This document shows positions 28,321-40,157 of a stretch of 64,000 nucleotides of DNA, in pieces. The notes under the pieces were generated by a model, which had not been told where the DNA came from, made no database searches, and saw only the letters and a list, made by a program, of their open reading frames with translations. The position numbers and the translations under genes were made by a program. This stretch comes from Betaproteobacteria bacterium TMED82 (GTDB lineage: Bacteria; Pseudomonadota; Gammaproteobacteria; Burkholderiales; Burkholderiaceae_A): NCBI GenBank assembly GCA_002170395.1, contig NHEJ01000002.1, forward strand, positions 129,844-193,843, in the 5' to 3' direction. Numbering within the stretch: position 1 is the stretch's first letter; every line of letters begins with the position of its first letter.

Positions 28321-28614
28321 AATTAACTCCAGGAAAAAATGCGATACCTATTTGAGTCCTGTTACTAACGAGGCGCTGTAGGTAAAGCCAGCGTAATAAA
28401 AAAACCTGACTGTTTGAATAAAGAAAAACACATGAGAATTTTCATCAATTTGTAGACGAGTTTTCTAGTATACGCGTGCCCAATATATAAATAAATAGCA
28501 AAGAAGTATATGTGATAACTTTTTCTAAAAGTAGTCAAAATTTGTACTAGCTGAACTTATACCCTACTATACTTAAATACCCCGTAAACCATCATGGACA
28601 ATCCGGAGAAATTC

Positions 28615-30162
28615 ATGAACAAACCTGAGAATAATTTTCAAATAAACAAAAATATGGTTTCGCACAATGACTATATTGGTCATTTCATAAACGGTAAAAA
28701 TGAACTTTGCGATGGTCCTGTTCGTGATATTTATGACCCGTCAACAGGTGATGTTGCAAGACAAGTAAAATTAGCGCGCAAATTAATTGTGGACAAAACA
28801 ATACAAGCTGCTGAGATCGCGTTTCTAAAATGGAAGAACACTACTCCAATCAAACGTGCCAGAATTATGTTTGAGTATAAGGGTTTACTGGAATCAAATT
28901 CTAATTTCATTTGCGAATTGATAGGCCAAGAACACGGAAAAATTTCTCATGATGCGCTAGGTGAATTACAACGGGCAATAGAAAATGTTGAGTATGCATG
29001 CGCTGCGCCAGAAATTCTCAAGGGAGCTTTTACAAGAAATGCGGGAACTAACGTCGATTCTTGGAGTGAATTTCATCCCATTGGGATTGTGGCTGGAATA
29101 ACACCATTTAATTTTCCAGTAATGGTGCCGATGTGGATGATTCCTCTGGCAGTTGTTTGTGGAAACACTTTCATTTTAAAACCCTCTGAAAAAGATCCGA
29201 CTGCTACGCTATTTATTTGTCAACTACTACATGAAGCTGGTTTACCTGATGGCGTTCTCAACGTGATAAATGGAGATAAAGAAACGGTCGATTTACTGCT
29301 TAGAGACCATAGAATTCAAGCAATAAGTTTCGTTGGCTCTACCCCAGTGGCGAAGAGTATATATGAAGCGGCATGTTCCCACGGAAAGCGTTGTCAAGCC
29401 CTTGGAGGGGCAAAAAATCATGCGGTCATAGCTCCAGACGCAGATCTAGATGATGCTGTAGATCAATTAATGGGAGCTGCTTTTGGCTCCAGTGGGGAAA
29501 GGTGCATGGCACTCTCTGTTGTCATAGTGATTGGAGAAAAAAAAGCAGACACTCTTGTAGAAAAACTAAAAAGTAAAATGAAATATTTAAAAGTTGGTCC
29601 ACACCATAATACCGACAATAACTTTGGCCCACTTATTTCAAAACAGCACAAGGAATATGTACTATCGCAAATCCAAAGTGCTGTTAATGATGGAGCTTCA
29701 ATACCGGTTGATGGAAGGCATGTTCAAGTTAGTGGGTATAAAAATGGATTTTTCATTGGAGCCACCTTATTGGACGATGTAGAGACTGATATGGAATCCT
29801 ATCAAAATGAGATTTTTGGGCCTGTTTTACAAATTATTAGAGCCAACTCTGTAGATGACGCCATCGAAATCATTAATAGCAATGCTTATGGTAACGGAAC
29901 TTGTATTTTTACCCAAAATGGAGCTTTGGGGAGATATTTTTCAAATAATGTAAATATTGGTATGGTGGGTATAAATACTCCCCTTCCCGTCCCGATCTCG
30001 TATCATAGTTTTGGGGGATGGAAGGCGTCACTTTTCGGGGATCTATGTGCTTACGGTCCTGATGGAGTGAGATTCTACACTAAAAGAAAAACAATTACTC
30101 AACGATGGCAAGTAGAGCTCGGGAAGGCTGGTTCTCACTTTTCGATGCCCTCTTCGGGTTAG
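28615..30162 (+). CDS. mmsA: CoA-acylating methylmalonate-semialdehyde dehydrogenase
   Basis: MmsA oxidises (methyl)malonate semialdehyde to propionyl- or acetyl-CoA in valine, beta-alanine and inositol breakdown. Motifs: ITPFNFPVMVPMWMIPLA, SFVGSTPVAKSIYE, and the catalytic cysteine in SSGERCMALSV. The family's C-terminus (KTITQRW) is present. I start at the second ATG because GGAGAA lies four bases before it, while the track ATG at 28594 has no ribosome site; this gives 515 residues. It shares direction with the next dehydrogenase, 70 bases away. Confidence 0.92.
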   Translation: MNKPENNFQINKNMVSHNDYIGHFINGKNELCDGPVRDIYDPSTGDVARQVKLARKLIVDKTIQAAEIAFLKWKNTTPIKRARIMFEYKGLLESNSNFICELIGQEHGKISHDALGELQRAIENVEYACAAPEILKGAFTRNAGTNVDSWSEFHPIGIVAGITPFNFPVMVPMWMIPLAVVCGNTFILKPSEKDPTATLFICQLLHEAGLPDGVLNVINGDKETVDLLLRDHRIQAISFVGSTPVAKSIYEAACSHGKRCQALGGAKNHAVIAPDADLDDAVDQLMGAAFGSSGERCMALSVVIVIGEKKADTLVEKLKSKMKYLKVGPHHNTDNNFGPLISKQHKEYVLSQIQSAVNDGASIPVDGRHVQVSGYKNGFFIGATLLDDVETDMESYQNEIFGPVLQIIRANSVDDAIEIINSNAYGNGTCIFTQNGALGRYFSNNVNIGMVGINTPLPVPISYHSFGGWKASLFGDLCAYGPDGVRFYTKRKTITQRWQVELGKAGSHFSMPSSG

Positions 30163-30232
30163 TACTAGTTTTGTAGAATCTTGAATACTGCAAAATAAAA
30201 AAAAGAGAGAAAATAACTATTGGGGAAAAACT

Positions 30233-31765
30233 ATGAATGATATGACTGAGGTTAGAAACTTTAGCGGAATGAAAGCATCGGGTTTAATTGACAACTCTTA
30301 CAATAACTTTATTGGTGGTAAATGGGTGTCGCCGATCGGAGGTGAATATTTTGATAATCCTACCCCTATCACCGGAGCTACACTTTGTAAAATACCAAGA
30401 TCAAAAGCTGCTGATGTTGATCTTGCATTGGATGCGGCTCACTCAGCTAAAGTTGCTTGGGGTTCAACCCCAGTAACTGAACGAGCTCGGGTTTTGGAAA
30501 AAATTGCGGATAGAATAGAAGAAAATTTATCGGCTCTTGCTCATGTAGAAACATGGGATAATGGAAAGCCTATTAGAGAAACAACTGCAGCAGATTTACC
30601 CCTAGCAGTTGAACACTTTAGATATTTTGCTGCCTGTGTGAGAGCCCAAGAAGGGAGCTTATCAGAGATTGATAGGAAAACAATTGCCTATCATTTTCAT
30701 GAACCAATAGGTGTCGTTGGACAAATTATTCCGTGGAATTTTCCGCTGCTTATGGCTGTATGGAAGATTGCTCCCGCTCTTGCCGCCGGTAATTGTGTAG
30801 TTATGAAACCCGCCGAGCAAACTCCGGTATCTATTTCTTACCTAATGAATTTAATTGGTGATTTGGTCCCAGAGGGCGTAATTAATGTTGTTCATGGATT
30901 TGGTCCGGAGGCAGGAAAGCCTTTGGCCTCCAGCTCTAGAGTCAATAAAGTTGCATTTACTGGAGAAACTACTACGGGCAGACTTATCATGCAATATGCA
31001 TCTAATAATATTATTCCAGTTACGCTTGAGCTTGGTGGAAAATCTCCAAACATTTTTTTTGAGGACGTTTTGAACCAAGATGATGCTTTTTTCGATAAGT
31101 GTTTAGAAGGTTTTGCAATGTTCGCCCTTAACCAGGGAGAAGTTTGTACCTGCCCATCAAGAGCTCTCATTCAAGAGTCAATATATGATCAATTTATGGA
31201 AAGAGCTATTGAAAGAGTAAAAAAAATAGTACAGGGCGATCCACTTGAAGCATCAACAATGGTCGGAGCACAGGCTTCTGCTGAGCAGTTTGAAAAAATC
31301 ATGTCTTACCTTGATATTGGTAAAAAAGAAGGAGCGAATTGTCCGGTGGGAGGCGATAAACTAACTATGGCTGGAGAGTTTGCTGGAGGATATTACGTTA
31401 AGCCTACAATATTCGAAGGTCACAATAAAATGCGTATTTTCCAGGAAGAAATTTTTGGTCCCGTTGTTTCTGTAGCCAAGTTCAAGGACAAAGAAGAGGT
31501 GCTGGAGATGGCAAATGACACGCTGTACGGTCTAGGTGCGGGAGTGTGGTCCAGAGATGCAAACACAGGATATGATTTCGGACGATCTATTCAGGCTGGT
31601 AGAGTTTGGGTTAATTGTTATCATTTGTACCCTGCACATGCAGCCTTTGGTGGTTATAAGCAGTCAGGCATAGGCCGGGAAACTCACAAAATGATGCTTG
31701 ACCATTATCAGCAAACTAAGAATGTTTTGGTTAGTTATAGCCCAAATGCTCTCGGGTTCTTTTAA
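30233..31765 (+). CDS. NAD-dependent aldehyde dehydrogenase (ExaC/AcoD type)
   Basis: The 510-residue enzyme has [21 protein letters not shown], the glutamate in [14 protein letters not shown] and the catalytic cysteine in [13 protein letters not shown], all typical of acetaldehyde/aldehyde dehydrogenases of the ExaC/AcoD/AldB group. A GGGGA ribosome site precedes the ATG. Members of this group are often followed by a DUF779 gene, as here eight bases later. Its place after mmsA suggests carbon catabolism of alcohols or aldehydes. Confidence 0.92.
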
Positions 31766-31773
31766 GGATTCAA

Positions 31774-32142
31774 ATGGTTCAGAGGGTTCTTGCAACTGCT
31801 GCCGCTTCGAAGCTTATTGAAGCTCTTAAGATGGAACATGGTGAGCTTATGTTCCATCAGTCCGGGGGTTGTTGTGATGGAAGCGCTCCTATGTGCTTTC
31901 AAAAGGGAGAATTTTTAACAGGTGACTCAGATATTTTACTTGGATACATATCAGGTTGCCCCTTTTACATGGGTAGACAACAGTTTGAATATTGGAAGCA
32001 CACTCAACTCATCATCGATGTAATAAAAGGGCGCGGGGGTATGTTTTCGATAGAAGGACCTACAGGGTTTAGATTTTTAACTCGATCTCGATTGTTCACG
32101 GAAGAAGAAAACGAAGTATTGAATGAGGGAACAATACCTTAA
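31774..32142 (+). CDS. DUF779 protein, partner of the aldehyde dehydrogenase
   Basis: A 122-residue DUF779 protein with the signature MFHQSGGCCDGSAPMCF, YISGCPFYMGRQQFEYWKHTQ and GRGGMFSIEGPTGFRFLTRSRLF. The clustered cysteines and histidine may bind metal. The gene begins eight bases after the ExaC-type dehydrogenase and is known to co-occur with such enzymes, but no biochemical function is settled. Confidence 0.9.
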   Translation: MVQRVLATAAASKLIEALKMEHGELMFHQSGGCCDGSAPMCFQKGEFLTGDSDILLGYISGCPFYMGRQQFEYWKHTQLIIDVIKGRGGMFSIEGPTGFRFLTRSRLFTEEENEVLNEGTIP

Positions 32143-33311: not shown

Positions 33312-33923
33312 ATGGAAGACTATTTGAAGTTAAAAAGCAAATTCCTGAGATTAGAAGCAAACGTTGAACAGCGAATTCAAAATGAAGCCACTAAATGGGC
33401 AGATGAAAATAAACAATTGAGAGACTCAATTATTCGTTTAAGAAATGAATTAGAGCATGAATCTTTTTCTAAGAAAAGTGCGATGCAAGCGGTTCGAGCT
33501 GAAGGCAGTAAAGATTTAAATCATTTAAAAAAATCGATAGTAACTCTGCGCAAGGAACTAGAAAATTTGCAAATAAGCACAACCGATAATATTCAAAAAG
33601 TTATTTCGAATTCTGCTGGTGAGATTAACCTTCTGAAAAGTACAATCATTTCTCTTAGAGGGGAATTAGAGAAGATGTTAGTTCAAAAAACAGAAGAGGT
33701 GCAAAAGGCAATAGCTGATCGGGAGTCGGTAATAGCTCATCTAAAATCTACTGTTTTATCGTTGAGAGAAACACTTGAAGATCAGCGATTAACCCATAAT
33801 CAAGAATTACAAAAAAAATCAGCGGAATACACTAAAGAAATTGAAAATTTACAACAAAGTTTAAGTTACACAAGAGACATATTAGAGAAAACCAAAAAGA
33901 ATATCGGGACAGAAAATGGCTAA
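33312..33923 (+). CDS. Coiled-coil protein with five 36-residue repeats, coupled to the cyclase
   Basis: A highly charged helical protein of 203 residues with no cysteine, signal or membrane segment. A motif of the form LKSTIxSLRxELE recurs so that the LR (last copy TR) pair falls at residues 43, 79, 115, 151 and 187, an exact 36-residue spacing. The start of each repeat is charged or variable, the core conserved. The last eight bases overlap the start of the adenylate cyclase gene, so the two are translationally coupled and probably interact or signal together. I recognise no named family. The ATG lacks a strong ribosome site. Confidence 0.8.
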   Translation: MEDYLKLKSKFLRLEANVEQRIQNEATKWADENKQLRDSIIRLRNELEHESFSKKSAMQAVRAEGSKDLNHLKKSIVTLRKELENLQISTTDNIQKVISNSAGEINLLKSTIISLRGELEKMLVQKTEEVQKAIADRESVIAHLKSTVLSLRETLEDQRLTHNQELQKKSAEYTKEIENLQQSLSYTRDILEKTKKNIGTENG

Positions 33924-36207
33924 GGGAAATGAAGGCGCATCTGGGAAACAGTTAATGAAACCCCGATCTACAACCGAAAACAAACTAAAACAAGCGGAGC
34001 TTTTATTAAGGGTTTCTAGAAAGGTTGCCGCGTTAGAAACAGTCGACGAGGTGCTGGAAGCTCTTGTAGAAATAACAACGTCTGAACTAGAAGCAGAACG
34101 AGGATCTTTATTTTTGAACGATGAATCTACTAATGAATTATATTCAAAAGTAGCGTTGGGCATGAAAAGTAGAGAAATCCGAGTAATGAATGATGCTGGG
34201 ATAGTGGGGCATGTTTTCCAAACAGGAACTGGTTTAATCGTTAAGAATGCCTACAACGACAAACGCTTTGATAAAACAATTGACGAAAACACGGGTTATA
34301 AAACAAGGTCTGTTCTATGTTCTCCCATCAAAACGGTTAAGGGAGAAATTATCGGCTGTACTCAAGTTTTAAACAAAAAGAAAGGTTCCTTTACTAAGTC
34401 TGATATGGTGTTTCTCGAATTAATAACTTCGCAAGCCTCTATTGCTCTTCAAAATACTCTTTATGTACAGCAAGTGCAAAAAGATCATGAGGAAGAGAAA
34501 GAATTTACGGATCTCATTTCTGATATAGCGGGGGAAATAAAACTAGACGTTCTTCTCAGAAGGGTAATGGCCGAAGCTACAAAAATATTAAAAGCTGATC
34601 GATCTACTTTATTTCTCAATGATGAAAAATCTCATCAACTTTGGTCTCAGGTAGGTGAGGGTTTAGGAACAACTGAAATTCGTTTGCCTAACCATCTGGG
34701 TATAGCCGGAAATGTTTTCCAAAGTAAGAAATCAATAAATATTCCGCACGCATATGCAGACCTAAGATTCAATCCAGAATTTGATAAAAAGACCGGATAC
34801 TTTACACGTTCAATCCTTTGTGTACCTTTAGTGAACCGTGATGGGAAAGTTATAGGTGTTACTCAAGCATTAAATAAAAAGGGAGGTTCGTTTTCTGAAG
34901 AAGATGAACAAAGATTAAAAGCATTTACTGCTCGCATTTCCATGGCATTAGAGAATGCAAAATTATTCTCCGATGTACAGAAAGTAAAAAACTACAATGA
35001 ATCAATGCTTCGCAGTATGTCAAACGGAGTTATTACGCTGGATACCGAAAATATAATTGTTACCTGTAATAATGCTGGTGAAAGGATTCTATCTACAAAA
35101 TCAAAAAAACTTATAGGCTTATCAGCAAATGATTTTTTTGGAAAATCTAATTCATGGGTCATCGAAAGAATTGAAAGGGTTAGTGAAACAAAAATTCCTG
35201 AATCTGTTGTCGACCAAAATCTCAGATTTAAAGAAAACATCGTATCTGTAAATCTAATAATTCTCCCCCTTGCCGATGAGGAAGAAGAGACGCTTGGGCT
35301 GATGATTATGATCGAGGATATCAGTTCAGAAAAAAGAATGAAATCCACAATGTCTAGATATATGGATCCTGGATTAGCAGATAAACTCATGAAAGATGGT
35401 TCGGACTTATTAGGGGGACAAGATATTGAAGCCACACTGCTATTTTCTGATGTAAGATCTTTCACAACGATTACTGAACAACTAGGGGCACAAGGCACCG
35501 TAAAACTTTTAAATGAATACTTCACTATAATGGTTGACTGTCTCAACAAGTTTGGAGGTATGTTGGATAAATTTATCGGGGATGCGATTATGGCAGGGTT
35601 TGGCGTCCCAGTTGCACATGATGACGATCCTGATAGAGCGTTAATGTGTGCGATCTCTATGCTTACAGAGTTGAAAAAATGGAATACTCATCGAGTTACA
35701 TTAAACCTGCCCGCGGTTGATATTGGGATAGGTTTGAATACCGGAAGAGTAGTCTCAGGAAATATTGGATCCTCAAAAAGAATGGACTTTACTATGATTG
35801 GCGATGGTGTTAATTTAGCAGCAAGACTAGAATCTGCTTGCAAACAGTACGCAGCAAAAATTCTTCTCTCTGAATTCACTTACAGAAAGCTTAAAGGCGT
35901 CTACAGAATTAGAGATGTTGATCTAGTCATAGTTAAGGGGAAAACAGAGCCTGTGGGAGTATACGAGGTTTTAGATTTTTACAGTGATGAAGAATTTCCT
36001 AACGTGATGGAAGTGTTGGGATATTTTAAATCTGGAGTAAAAGATTTTAGACAAGGTGACTGGAGAAAAGCTACAAAGTCCTTTAGCGAGGCTTTTAAAA
36101 TTCACCCAGAAGATAAACTCTCAAGAATTTATATTGAACGTTGTGAACACTTGATGAACAACCCTCCTAAAAATTGGGACGGTGTTTGGGTAATGTCGAG
36201 CAAATAG
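33916..36207 (+). CDS. Class III adenylate cyclase with GAF-GAF-PAS sensor region
   Basis: A 763-residue signalling enzyme without membrane helices. Two GAF domains (about 30-175 and 205-350; both contain 'ERGSLFLND/DRSTLFLND' and 'TRSVLC/TRSILC'), a PAS-like domain (about 360-475) and a class III catalytic domain (about 505-690) follow in order. Metal aspartates are in FSDVRSF and FIGDAIMA. The purine-selecting Lys (LDKFIGD) and Asp (RMDFTMIGD) favour ATP, and GVNLAARLE supplies the transition-state Asn and Arg. A C-terminal TPR-like segment (FRQGDWRKATKSFSEAFKIHP) ends it. It probably makes cAMP in response to a small ligand bound by GAF. Confidence 0.93.
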   Translation: MAKGNEGASGKQLMKPRSTTENKLKQAELLLRVSRKVAALETVDEVLEALVEITTSELEAERGSLFLNDESTNELYSKVALGMKSREIRVMNDAGIVGHVFQTGTGLIVKNAYNDKRFDKTIDENTGYKTRSVLCSPIKTVKGEIIGCTQVLNKKKGSFTKSDMVFLELITSQASIALQNTLYVQQVQKDHEEEKEFTDLISDIAGEIKLDVLLRRVMAEATKILKADRSTLFLNDEKSHQLWSQVGEGLGTTEIRLPNHLGIAGNVFQSKKSINIPHAYADLRFNPEFDKKTGYFTRSILCVPLVNRDGKVIGVTQALNKKGGSFSEEDEQRLKAFTARISMALENAKLFSDVQKVKNYNESMLRSMSNGVITLDTENIIVTCNNAGERILSTKSKKLIGLSANDFFGKSNSWVIERIERVSETKIPESVVDQNLRFKENIVSVNLIILPLADEEEETLGLMIMIEDISSEKRMKSTMSRYMDPGLADKLMKDGSDLLGGQDIEATLLFSDVRSFTTITEQLGAQGTVKLLNEYFTIMVDCLNKFGGMLDKFIGDAIMAGFGVPVAHDDDPDRALMCAISMLTELKKWNTHRVTLNLPAVDIGIGLNTGRVVSGNIGSSKRMDFTMIGDGVNLAARLESACKQYAAKILLSEFTYRKLKGVYRIRDVDLVIVKGKTEPVGVYEVLDFYSDEEFPNVMEVLGYFKSGVKDFRQGDWRKATKSFSEAFKIHPEDKLSRIYIERCEHLMNNPPKNWDGVWVMSSK

Positions 36208-36689: not shown

Positions 36690-39600
36690 TTAAGTGTAAA
36701 CCTCCTGTAACCAACAAAGAGTATTTACCAGCGTAAGTTGCTCGGGAGTTTTACAAGGAAATGTTAATAATTCCTGCGACGCAACTATAACTGATAGACA
36801 TTTTGCTCGAGTAATTGCTACGTTTAATCTGTTTTTACTAAATAAAAATTCCACCTCACGTGGCATTGACTCGGCGTTTGAAGTGGTCATGGAAATTAAT
36901 ACTACCTCCGCTTCTTGCCCCTGAAATTTGTCAATTGTCCCAACCCTTGCGCCTTCAGGAAGACACTTTCTTAATTCTTGAACTTGAAGATTAAATGGTG
37001 CCACTACCAAAATATCTTCGAATGTAATCACCTTTTTTCTCTGTTTATTTTCGATAACTGATTGACCCAACAATCCAATATATAGCTCTCGTATCTTATC
37101 AACCTCTGATTTACTGTGTTTTTTACACCCAGAATGGACAATCGGAATATATTTTATTCCACAAGGAATAAGTTGATTACTTAAAGTATCAGAGAGCAAT
37201 AGAACTCGGTTTGCATTTTTACTGTTTGGAAGTAACTTTGATTGATAAAATGCTTCGGAAATGAATTCGCAAATATAGGGATGCAAGCGATAGGTTTTAT
37301 CTAAAAAAATACCCATGGTTGGAGGAACGACTGAAAGTACTCCCTCATCATTATTTTTAGTTTGTAATAAATAATTTATAGCAGAAATTCCAGAATCATT
37401 AGGATGTACGCCCTGTGTTGGCTGCTCTAATTGGTTTTGATCACCTATGAGTATCAAAGATTTTGAACTAGTACCCGCTGCAATTAATGTGGCCAAACTC
37501 ATTTGACCTGCCTCCTCTACCACTAAATAATCTAATAAGCTGTCTAGCTCCGGTTGAGAAAAGAACCAAGCTGTACCGGCCATAAGCTGAAAATTACCAT
37601 TCAGCATTTCCTTATTTTTAGCGCAATCTACAATCATCGAATTACTGTCTTTTAGGTTGCTATAACGCTGAGATTTATCAGCTAGGTTAGATTTTTTTGC
37701 TCCTAAAAAGAAAAAATTGTCCTCAAGAGAATGAGTTTCTATTTTTTGCAAAAAATTTATTATTGCTTTGTGACTATTAGAAGTAACTCCAACCCTTTTT
37801 CCTTCTTGCAGTAATTTAACTACAACTTTTGATCCTAAAAATGTTTTTCCCGTACCCGGCGGTCCTTGAACAAACAAATAACTTGAATTTAGACCTTTGA
37901 TAATATCAGTGACAGACTCTAAAGAATTTGAATTGCCAAGTACTTTTTTTACTTCGTTATTACATAAGATTCTTGGCTCATCTCGCTTTAATACCGCAGT
38001 TATCGCTGAATATCTTTCATTATTCGCTGCATAGCGAAATATACTTTGGACTAAGGTATCTATATTTTCGGCAGGTCCATCCAGCCCAATATCGATAGGG
38101 AACCTGGGAAGATCTTTGCCAACTCCCTTCTTAAAACTTATTATGTTTTTATCTCTTTCGATTAACACATCACTTAATCCAGATCTAGAAGCTAAATCTA
38201 TACACCGATCGCCAGTCTTGATAGAAAAATTTTGTGGTGGATACTTGCACCTAAACTTTAATGATCTGCCTACATTCTCTCGATTCCCAGCAATAACTTC
38301 ATCAACAGATACGATACAATCCTCTCTTTCTGCTCGCTCTTGAAAACCAGCTTCCAATCGATCGAAATAAGACCACCACTGGGGTTTTTGGTCGCGTTTA
38401 TGAAAATCTAGTAAATCTATCAGAACTCTTTTGTATTGAATAACTTTATCTTCGAGTAACGGTTGACTCTCCAAACTTATCTCTGCTTCTAATTTTCGTT
38501 TGATGATTGCAAGATCTCTTGCGTAATTTTTTGCTCTGTCTGATATGTCAGCATGATTCGATTCGTTAGAAGAGGCTGAGAAAAAATTGATATTGTTATT
38601 TTCCATAATACTAAGCAGCCACTGACGCAAAAAATAGGTAGATCTAACATCTTCTAGGTTATAATTTTCGATTTCTCGAAGTATTTCTGAGTTTCTGCCT
38701 TCCCCCGAGTTTTTCCATTCTTCAAAAAAAATTAAACTATCCGCAGCGTTTATAACAGCTCCGTCTCTTTGTCCAAATTCTTTCTTGTAGAATTTTTCAA
38801 GGTTTTTAATAGAGTATTTACTTTCCGAAATTCTAATTGACTCTCTAACAACTTGATAAAGATCTATCAACTTTCCCTCACGGAGAAATTGATCAATTAT
38901 TTGCTGCCCTAAATCATATTTATTTGACAACCTTCTGAGCGCGATTTTCTCGTAAGGGGCATAGTGGTAGACGTGAGCAGATGGGAAACTCTTCAGATGA
39001 GAAGTTAAAAATTCAAGAAAATTTCTGAATGTATTTTTTTCTTCCTCTTGGCTAAGAGCCCAAAAAGGTTTGTAAATCTCTTCCTGGCCGCTCAAATAAA
39101 ATAAACCGAAGAGATATTCTAGCTTATCAGTTGAAAGGGGGTCACTTTCCATATCAAAAAATAAATCTCCCTCTGCTGCTCTTGGTAATATGTCAAAACC
39201 TCGCCTCTCAGAATTCATGTTTGAACCTCTTCTCAACGCTATCTCGTCGGGTTTAATTAATTCAAAGAGTGCTTTGCCAGCTTTTTTTGCCCTAACTTGT
39301 AATTCAGCTTGATGCTGTAGTCTAAAAAATGTTGCTGAATTTAAGCTGGTAATATTTTTATTGCTAGGAACCTCAGATAATTGTTGCATAGTGTTAATTT
39401 CTGCAGCTCTTAGCTTGTCAATCTGGATCTTTTTTATAAATGCAACTTGACAAAGATGGTCCTTACTTTTCCAAATATCATTACAATAGTCCCGCCAATG
39501 ACAAATTTCACAATGTTGGCAGGGAAAAGGCTCAGAATTTGTAAAGCTGCTCGACTTAATAAATGTGAAAAATCTCTTTCTTAAATTTCTAAAATAGAAT

Positions 39601-40157
39601 AAGTAATCTTTAACTTTAAAATTTCTTTTTTCGTTGTTACCCAAAATTAAATAGGCATGAGTAGGCAACTTCCCCAAATATTCTGTAAGCATCTCAGAAT
39701 AATGAATTACCTGTAAAACTGCTCCAGCTCTTACTGTCAGGGCAAGCTTAGTATCCCACACTTCATATGAATAATTTCCAAATATTGAGGTATCGTTATT
39801 TCTAACTAAGAAATCAGGTCTCGCTTCCCAAATATCATCTATCAAACCACCTTGGTATATTAATTGAGCACCATCGTTCATTGCCTGGAGTGTAAGCTTG
39901 CTTCTTTGTTCGGAAGTGTAATTACCTCTGAGATCGACAAAATTTGGATAAATGCCAGTCAAAAGTTCTAAGTAAGTTAACTCATGCTTGCGTCCGTTTT
40001 CTTGAATCAACTTAATGTACTGACTAGGACTAGACTTATTTACGGCCAGCGCTTCATCATGAAGAGAGCGTAAATCTAAACCCGAAAGAAAGGAGCACTT
40101 TGAAAAATTTATAATATCTGATGTGGAGAAAAAAACATCATTTGACTCCTTTCTCAT
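36690..40157 (-). CDS. TM0106-type RecB-like nuclease fused to SF1 helicase
   Basis: A 1155-residue protein in three parts. Residues 1-230 form a RecB/Cas4-like nuclease: RPDFLVR and YEVWDTKLA (PD-D-x-K), QVIHYSEML (the QxxxY motif), and cysteines at 21 plus CQHCEICHWRDYC that would hold a [4Fe-4S] cluster. Residues about 330-520 form an RNase H-like exonuclease domain (GDLFFDMESDPL). Residues about 740-1155 form a Dna2/Upf1-like SF1 helicase with Walker A (QGPPGTGKTFLGS) near 762 and VVEEAGQMS near 879. The role in DNA repair or defence is not settled. It is preceded by a small membrane-protein gene seven bases upstream. Confidence 0.88.
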   Translation of the reverse strand: MRKESNDVFFSTSDIINFSKCSFLSGLDLRSLHDEALAVNKSSPSQYIKLIQENGRKHELTYLELLTGIYPNFVDLRGNYTSEQRSKLTLQAMNDGAQLIYQGGLIDDIWEARPDFLVRNNDTSIFGNYSYEVWDTKLALTVRAGAVLQVIHYSEMLTEYLGKLPTHAYLILGNNEKRNFKVKDYLFYFRNLRKRFFTFIKSSSFTNSEPFPCQHCEICHWRDYCNDIWKSKDHLCQVAFIKKIQIDKLRAAEINTMQQLSEVPSNKNITSLNSATFFRLQHQAELQVRAKKAGKALFELIKPDEIALRRGSNMNSERRGFDILPRAAEGDLFFDMESDPLSTDKLEYLFGLFYLSGQEEIYKPFWALSQEEEKNTFRNFLEFLTSHLKSFPSAHVYHYAPYEKIALRRLSNKYDLGQQIIDQFLREGKLIDLYQVVRESIRISESKYSIKNLEKFYKKEFGQRDGAVINAADSLIFFEEWKNSGEGRNSEILREIENYNLEDVRSTYFLRQWLLSIMENNNINFFSASSNESNHADISDRAKNYARDLAIIKRKLEAEISLESQPLLEDKVIQYKRVLIDLLDFHKRDQKPQWWSYFDRLEAGFQERAEREDCIVSVDEVIAGNRENVGRSLKFRCKYPPQNFSIKTGDRCIDLASRSGLSDVLIERDKNIISFKKGVGKDLPRFPIDIGLDGPAENIDTLVQSIFRYAANNERYSAITAVLKRDEPRILCNNEVKKVLGNSNSLESVTDIIKGLNSSYLFVQGPPGTGKTFLGSKVVVKLLQEGKRVGVTSNSHKAIINFLQKIETHSLEDNFFFLGAKKSNLADKSQRYSNLKDSNSMIVDCAKNKEMLNGNFQLMAGTAWFFSQPELDSLLDYLVVEEAGQMSLATLIAAGTSSKSLILIGDQNQLEQPTQGVHPNDSGISAINYLLQTKNNDEGVLSVVPPTMGIFLDKTYRLHPYICEFISEAFYQSKLLPNSKNANRVLLLSDTLSNQLIPCGIKYIPIVHSGCKKHSKSEVDKIRELYIGLLGQSVIENKQRKKVITFEDILVVAPFNLQVQELRKCLPEGARVGTIDKFQGQEAEVVLISMTTSNAESMPREVEFLFSKNRLNVAITRAKCLSVIVASQELLTFPCKTPEQLTLVNTLCWLQEVYT

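Follow-up and report, generated by a model that had tools for sequence, protein, structure and literature searches.

The Anabaena cyclases CyaB1 and CyaB2 combine two GAF domains with cNMP-binding signatures, a PAS domain and a class III catalytic domain, in that order. CyaB2 has the same domain order as the enzyme described here, and its GAF domains bind cAMP (PMC4411481). Soluble tandem-GAF cyclases have so far been studied as self-contained enzymes; if a widespread subfamily has a near-obligate coiled-coil partner, part of its regulation has been missed. Among bacterial coiled coils, the hendecad/heptad rods FilP and Scy are part of the cell-division machinery (PMC9858780). The number of residues per turn is 3.63 in an undistorted helix and 3.5 in heptads (PMC9858780).

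In the 64-kb window (the whole stretch of DNA that was analysed, 64,000 nucleotides), a gene for a 203-residue coiled-coil protein, here called the rod, runs into the start of a class III cyclase gene. The eight-base overlap reported by the sequence-only reading was confirmed (ATGGCTAA). The features of the gene pair, in window coordinates, are:

33312–33923, plus strand: coiled-coil rod gene, 203 aa, encoding a 36-residue tandem repeat protein (ORF call, period analysis)
33330–33437, plus strand: degenerate N-terminal repeat of the rod, residues 7–42, in register with the 36-residue period
33438–33545, plus strand: rod repeat 1, residues 43–78, LR at 43
33546–33653, plus strand: rod repeat 2, residues 79–114, LR at 79
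33654–33761, plus strand: rod repeat 3, residues 115–150, LR at 115
33762–33869, plus strand: rod repeat 4, residues 151–186, LR at 151, at the C-terminal cap repeat position
33916–33923, plus strand: overlap of rod stop and cyclase start, 8 bp, read from the window sequence
33916–36207, plus strand: class III nucleotidyl cyclase, 763 aa, GAF-GAF-PAS-CHD (ORF, Pfam, orthologue alignment)
34039–34452, plus strand: cyclase GAF-A, residues 42–179, NK..F...D conserved (Pfam)
34543–34950, plus strand: cyclase GAF-B, residues 210–345, complete NKFDE motif (Pfam; matches CyaB2 and PDE5 GAF structures)
34999–35337, plus strand: cyclase PAS domain, residues 362–474 (Pfam)
35428–35949, plus strand: cyclase catalytic domain, residues 505–678 (Pfam and conserved residues)
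35998–36204, plus strand: conserved cyclase C-terminal tail ending WDGVWVMSSK, residues 695–763 (alignment)

Upstream of the pair, a DUF779 gene (31774–32142) adjoins two aldehyde dehydrogenase-like genes (28594–31765). Downstream, the minus strand encodes a 1155-aa protein that is nuclease-helicase-like by appearance only (36690–40157).

Pfam searches of the cyclase returned two GAF domains, PAS and Guanylate_cyc in the order found in CyaB1 and CyaB2. GAF-B contains the complete NKFDE motif (N320, K321, F326, D330 and E331), and in GAF-A N153, K154, F159 and D163 are invariant, with M at the position of the motif E. The catalytic residues D512, D556, K552, T626, N633 and R637 are invariant in four orthologues, and this set (Asp pair, Lys/Thr purine pair and Asn/Arg) aligns with that of CyaB (3r5g); in the 2w01 chain, E and G take the places of the catalytic K and T. 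Judged by these signatures, the cyclase is of the ordinary kind, with CyaB1/CyaB2 architecture, GAF domains of the cNMP-binding type, and adenylate-type Lys and Thr.

The rod had been described as repeating with an exact period of 36 residues, and its self-comparison bears this out. The mean BLOSUM62 self-score was 1.09 at offset 36 (46 identities) and 0.85 at offset 72, the best offset outside multiples of 36 scored 0.03, and LR recurs at residues 43, 79, 115 and 151, with TR at 187. Over 1500 full shuffles of the rod, the best score at offsets 10–79 never exceeded 0.20; over 1500 shuffles preserving the hydrophobic pattern, the best score at any offset never exceeded 0.62. Because neither kind of shuffle reaches the self-score of the rod, the period is a genuine tandem repeat and not a by-product of coiled-coil composition, and the pattern-preserving shuffles rule out chance periodicity derived from heptads.

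The same period was found in 80 named loci chosen by cyclase patterns alone (W[DN]GVWVM and TLFLN[DN]EK). These include Rhodospirillales, Rhodocyclaceae, Oxalobacteraceae, Desulfobacterales and others, with the proviso that some MAG labels may be wrong. The upstream ORF had its best self-similarity at an offset of exactly 36 in 79/80 loci: 78 and, in addition, L059, whose LR motif has diverged. At the 80th (L092), no rod was found in the ~260 nt of upstream sequence present. Spacing is constant across homologues: 251 LR–LR spacings are exactly 36, and the remainder are nearly all 7, 29 or 72, arising from extra or missed motif matches. Copy number varies among loci, from 2 to 9 LR sites. Two of the loci, L065 and L081, come from metagenome bins titled Bordetella parapertussis and Klebsiella pneumoniae, and their cyclases fall among environmental Betaproteobacteria on the cyclase tree; both species labels are probably wrong.

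Alignment of 305 repeats gave the consensus LRDELERLRFEKEEAVQQAVAAANDEIAQLKATIQA, in which positions 1, 2, 5 and 6 belonged to the search motif. With E..QL as an alternative anchor, R was still present at 98% twelve residues on, and in this unbiased register R is conserved at 90–98% across repeats. Core positions 1, 5, 8, 12, 16, 19, 23, 27, 30 and 34, of which 12 (K) and 23 (A/S/G) are weak, are spaced by 7s and 11s and divide the unit into 11+11+7+7, a mixture of hendecads and heptads. Each repeat spans 36 residues in ten turns, or 3.60 residues per turn, and hydrophobic power is maximal at ten turns per 36. The local phase moves between about −25 and +67 degrees, a swing of about 90 degrees that cancels within each repeat. 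The prediction of a straight rod therefore holds on average, since 3.60 residues per turn, set beside the 3.63 of an undistorted helix and the 3.5 of heptads (PMC9858780), implies very little supercoiling, and a near-straight rod is expected from this average. The core itself does not follow a uniform 3.6-residue pattern but consists of two hendecads and two heptads, with the ~90-degree phase swing.

AlphaFold2 (AF2; 33 sequences, single chain) predicted a single unbroken helix over rod residues 2–201, with a mean pLDDT of 92.5. A helical hairpin or solenoid of 36-residue units was rejected on the basis of this model, the near-absence of prolines (4 in 10,836 repeat residues) and the lack of indels in the repeats, which loops would permit. 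Small residues (Ala, Ser or Gly) at core positions 19 and 23 fit dimeric hendecad packing in principle (PMC9858780). A net charge of about −2 per repeat makes a DNA-binding rod unlikely. Rod length across the family ranges from 100 to 430 aa.

Internal repeats are homogenised, being 51% identical within a protein and 41% between proteins. Identity between internal and last repeats is 34%, which marks the final repeat, next to the cyclase, as a distinct cap. Between species, however, last repeats share only 33% identity, so the cap is a loosely conserved pattern, with Y/H12, R21, R24 and Q31 recurring between species. On the outer face of the repeat, F10, Q17 and A21 are partly conserved. For the rod of one relative, G059 (L029:2761-2823), the frame is open upstream of the first GTG and contains an ATC codon after a good GAGGAGG site, possibly a rare ATC start or a sequence error.

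Searches in both directions tie the rod to this cyclase. Among 61 relatives, the sole strong coiled-coil homologues (G004, G026 and G059) adjoin the sole full-length cyclase orthologues, which are 58–77% identical; a further coiled-coil match (G026:C28) was set aside as a type I secretion adaptor by sequence appearance. Across 398 genomes of the phylum, the coiled-coil profile (A3) matched 19, and close cyclase orthologues (above 1100 bits) matched the same 19, side by side with it. Among 30 genomes of one class, both searches matched the same 8. Rod homologues without the cyclase were accordingly not found in either set, the two occurring together in 19/19 and 8/8 genomes. In a second phylum (198 genomes), the coiled-coil profile and the cyclase search each matched 5 genomes, 3 of them in common. 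One extra coiled-coil match (G547) is unrelated, a lipoprotein-like coiled coil whose end is OmpA-like; the other (G524) is a rod (L176:1220–1918) followed only by a 94-aa C-terminal remnant of the cyclase, which may reflect internal deletion or assembly collapse. Nine genomes drawn from the 80 loci each contain the rod at a single locus, and no plasmid copies of the cyclase were found at E 1e-100. The idea of a dedicated structural partner is thus strongly supported by genomics as regards its dedication; a structural role, or contact with the enzyme, is what we infer.

No third gene is common to the loci, the top neighbour cluster occurring in 11/80. In these 11 (L035, L042, L051, L052, L058, L059, L062, L067, L070, L077 and L100), a divergent downstream ORF looks, from its sequence, like a CHASE2-type membrane cyclase. 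In five loci (L042, L043, L051, L058 and L059), the pair is followed by what is presumably, again by appearance, a type I secretion ABC protein.

No rod accompanies the more distant cyclases. The two remaining cyclase matches in the second phylum (G582 and G554) have lower scores, no upstream rod and a different N-terminal extension, and G448 contains a cyclase of about the same architecture, also with no rod. Since these similar cyclases have none, the rod is probably not required for catalysis as such. The conserved C-terminal tail is also present in cyclases without a rod. G026 contains a paralogous GAF-PAS-cyclase with a WDGVW tail and no upstream rod gene (L030:4672-7365), in which predicted membrane helices and a HAMP-like region, recognised by appearance only, replace GAF-A. 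On the cyclase tree, a single change accounts for rod presence (SH-aLRT 100); this tree is a quick one that contains just four rows without a rod, of which two have long branches, and it counts L092 in the rod group.

The two genes are closely linked. They overlap in 48/76 scored loci, 4 and 11 bases being the commonest lengths, and in 67/76 they overlap or are separated by ≤30 nt, with start codons set by rule rather than by experiment. Identities of rod and cyclase are correlated across 72 loci (Spearman 0.50, matched by 0/500 permutations). In G094, one 888-aa open frame runs from rod repeats through a linker without Met to the helix of GAF-A. Unless the assembly is wrong, this is a natural rod–cyclase fusion. 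Its rod is degenerate and contains proline, and it therefore supports proximity of the two proteins, not a long scaffold.

These data make a functional link between rod and cyclase almost certain, and direct binding is likely, with the caveat that conservation in an operon does not require direct binding to the enzyme. We propose that rod and cyclase genes constitute a dedicated module of two components. The rod would be an unbroken, nearly straight helix, probably dimeric with parallel strands, built of units of ~5.4 nm, given the ~1.5 Å rise per residue of a helix. With ten helical turns to each unit, equivalent residues of all copies would point in the same direction along the rod. Most units would be interchangeable, their number varying by species, and the last, the cap, would dock on the soluble CyaB-type cyclase dimer at its N-terminal (GAF-A) end. 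Through the repeats, rods could pack laterally or several enzymes could be kept in register; in this way the rod would localise or cluster the cyclase and shape its cAMP-gated activity. We assign a probability of about 0.5 to this reading, in which a dedicated dimeric rod, its cap docked on the GAF-A end, scaffolds or gates a CyaB-type cyclase; dimerisation, the docking site, and scaffolding or gating are its inferred elements. A bolder version is tentative: a new second-messenger scaffold, whose straight rod would present identical docking faces every 5.4 nm on one side and align cyclase dimers into arrays; the number of repeats would set the size of the array and would change between species by homogenising tandem duplication.

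Of the mechanisms considered, we rank scaffolding or localisation first, an allosteric helix acting in trans second and a cAMP-controlled filament third. As an allosteric regulator, the rod would serve as a detachable signalling helix that pairs with the helix at the cyclase N terminus, and in response to a signal it would shift the register of the GAF/PAS/catalytic dimer. The nearest rod-less cyclases do carry an extra helix-like N-terminal extension, rod-linked cyclases begin almost at GAF-A, the G094 fusion places the rod at exactly that N-terminal position, and the C-terminal repeat is specialised. For a register switch, however, a single short helix would be enough, whereas these rods have as many as nine near-identical, homogenised repeats in varying number, and we consider this mechanism doubtful. 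Less probable still is a cytoskeletal filament that the cyclase would serve, cAMP from the neighbouring enzyme controlling filament assembly or turnover. Exact repeats of constant azimuth, with F10, Q17 and A21 on the outer face and homogenised internal units, would suit lateral assembly, and the rods FilP and Scy offer a cell-division precedent (PMC9858780); yet many rods have just 3–4 repeats (~16–22 nm), and both the fusion and the strict tie to a single subfamily of cyclases speak for a role on the enzyme. That the upstream ORF has no role as a protein, and is either a leader for translation or a degenerate repeat that linkage has carried with it, is compatible with coupling through overlapping start and stop codons but highly improbable in view of position-specific amino-acid conservation (R 90–98%) across proteins ~36% identical, a reading frame and 36-residue spacing kept in many lineages, and the in-frame fusion in one genome.

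The rod matched no curated family in Pfam or NCBIfam, and a PDB profile search gave just a weak match to the SAS-6 coiled coil (E 0.002) and no convincing relative. No description of the pairing, or of a 36-residue repeat coiled coil, was found in the open-licence literature. Very probably, then, a known type of cyclase is joined here by a new family of dedicated partner. With its 11+11+7+7 core, the exact, homogenised unit is a natural case in which to test cleanly how coiled coils avoid supercoiling, and whether a fixed helical azimuth is selected to hold binding faces in register.

SF-assemblin and beta-giardin, striated-fibre proteins, are also long, regularly repeating rods, with a period of ~29 residues. 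SF-assemblin (PF06705) is the best Pfam match of the rod, but its score of 21.9 bits lies below the gathering cut-off of 30.6, so membership was rejected; unlike the rod, these proteins are eukaryotic. FilP and Scy of Actinobacteria resemble the rod in being long and helical, with hendecads, alanine-rich cores and repeat expansion (PMC9858780). They differ from it in having an N-terminal DivIVA-like motif and growing by hendecads, whereas the window rod is built from an exact 36-residue unit and tied to a cyclase; Pfam and NCBIfam scans detected no DivIVA family in the rod. Signalling-helix coiled coils are short and belong to the same chain as the domains they serve, whereas the rod is a separate protein of 100–430 aa made of repeated units. 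On the enzyme side, the GAF pair of CyaB2 (1ykd) is a significant PDB match to the window cyclase, which shares with CyaB1 and CyaB2 its domain order and cNMP-binding GAF signatures. It differs from them in its conserved WDGVWVM tail and in its dedicated upstream coiled-coil gene, a kind of partner of which we found no description for CyaB1 or CyaB2.
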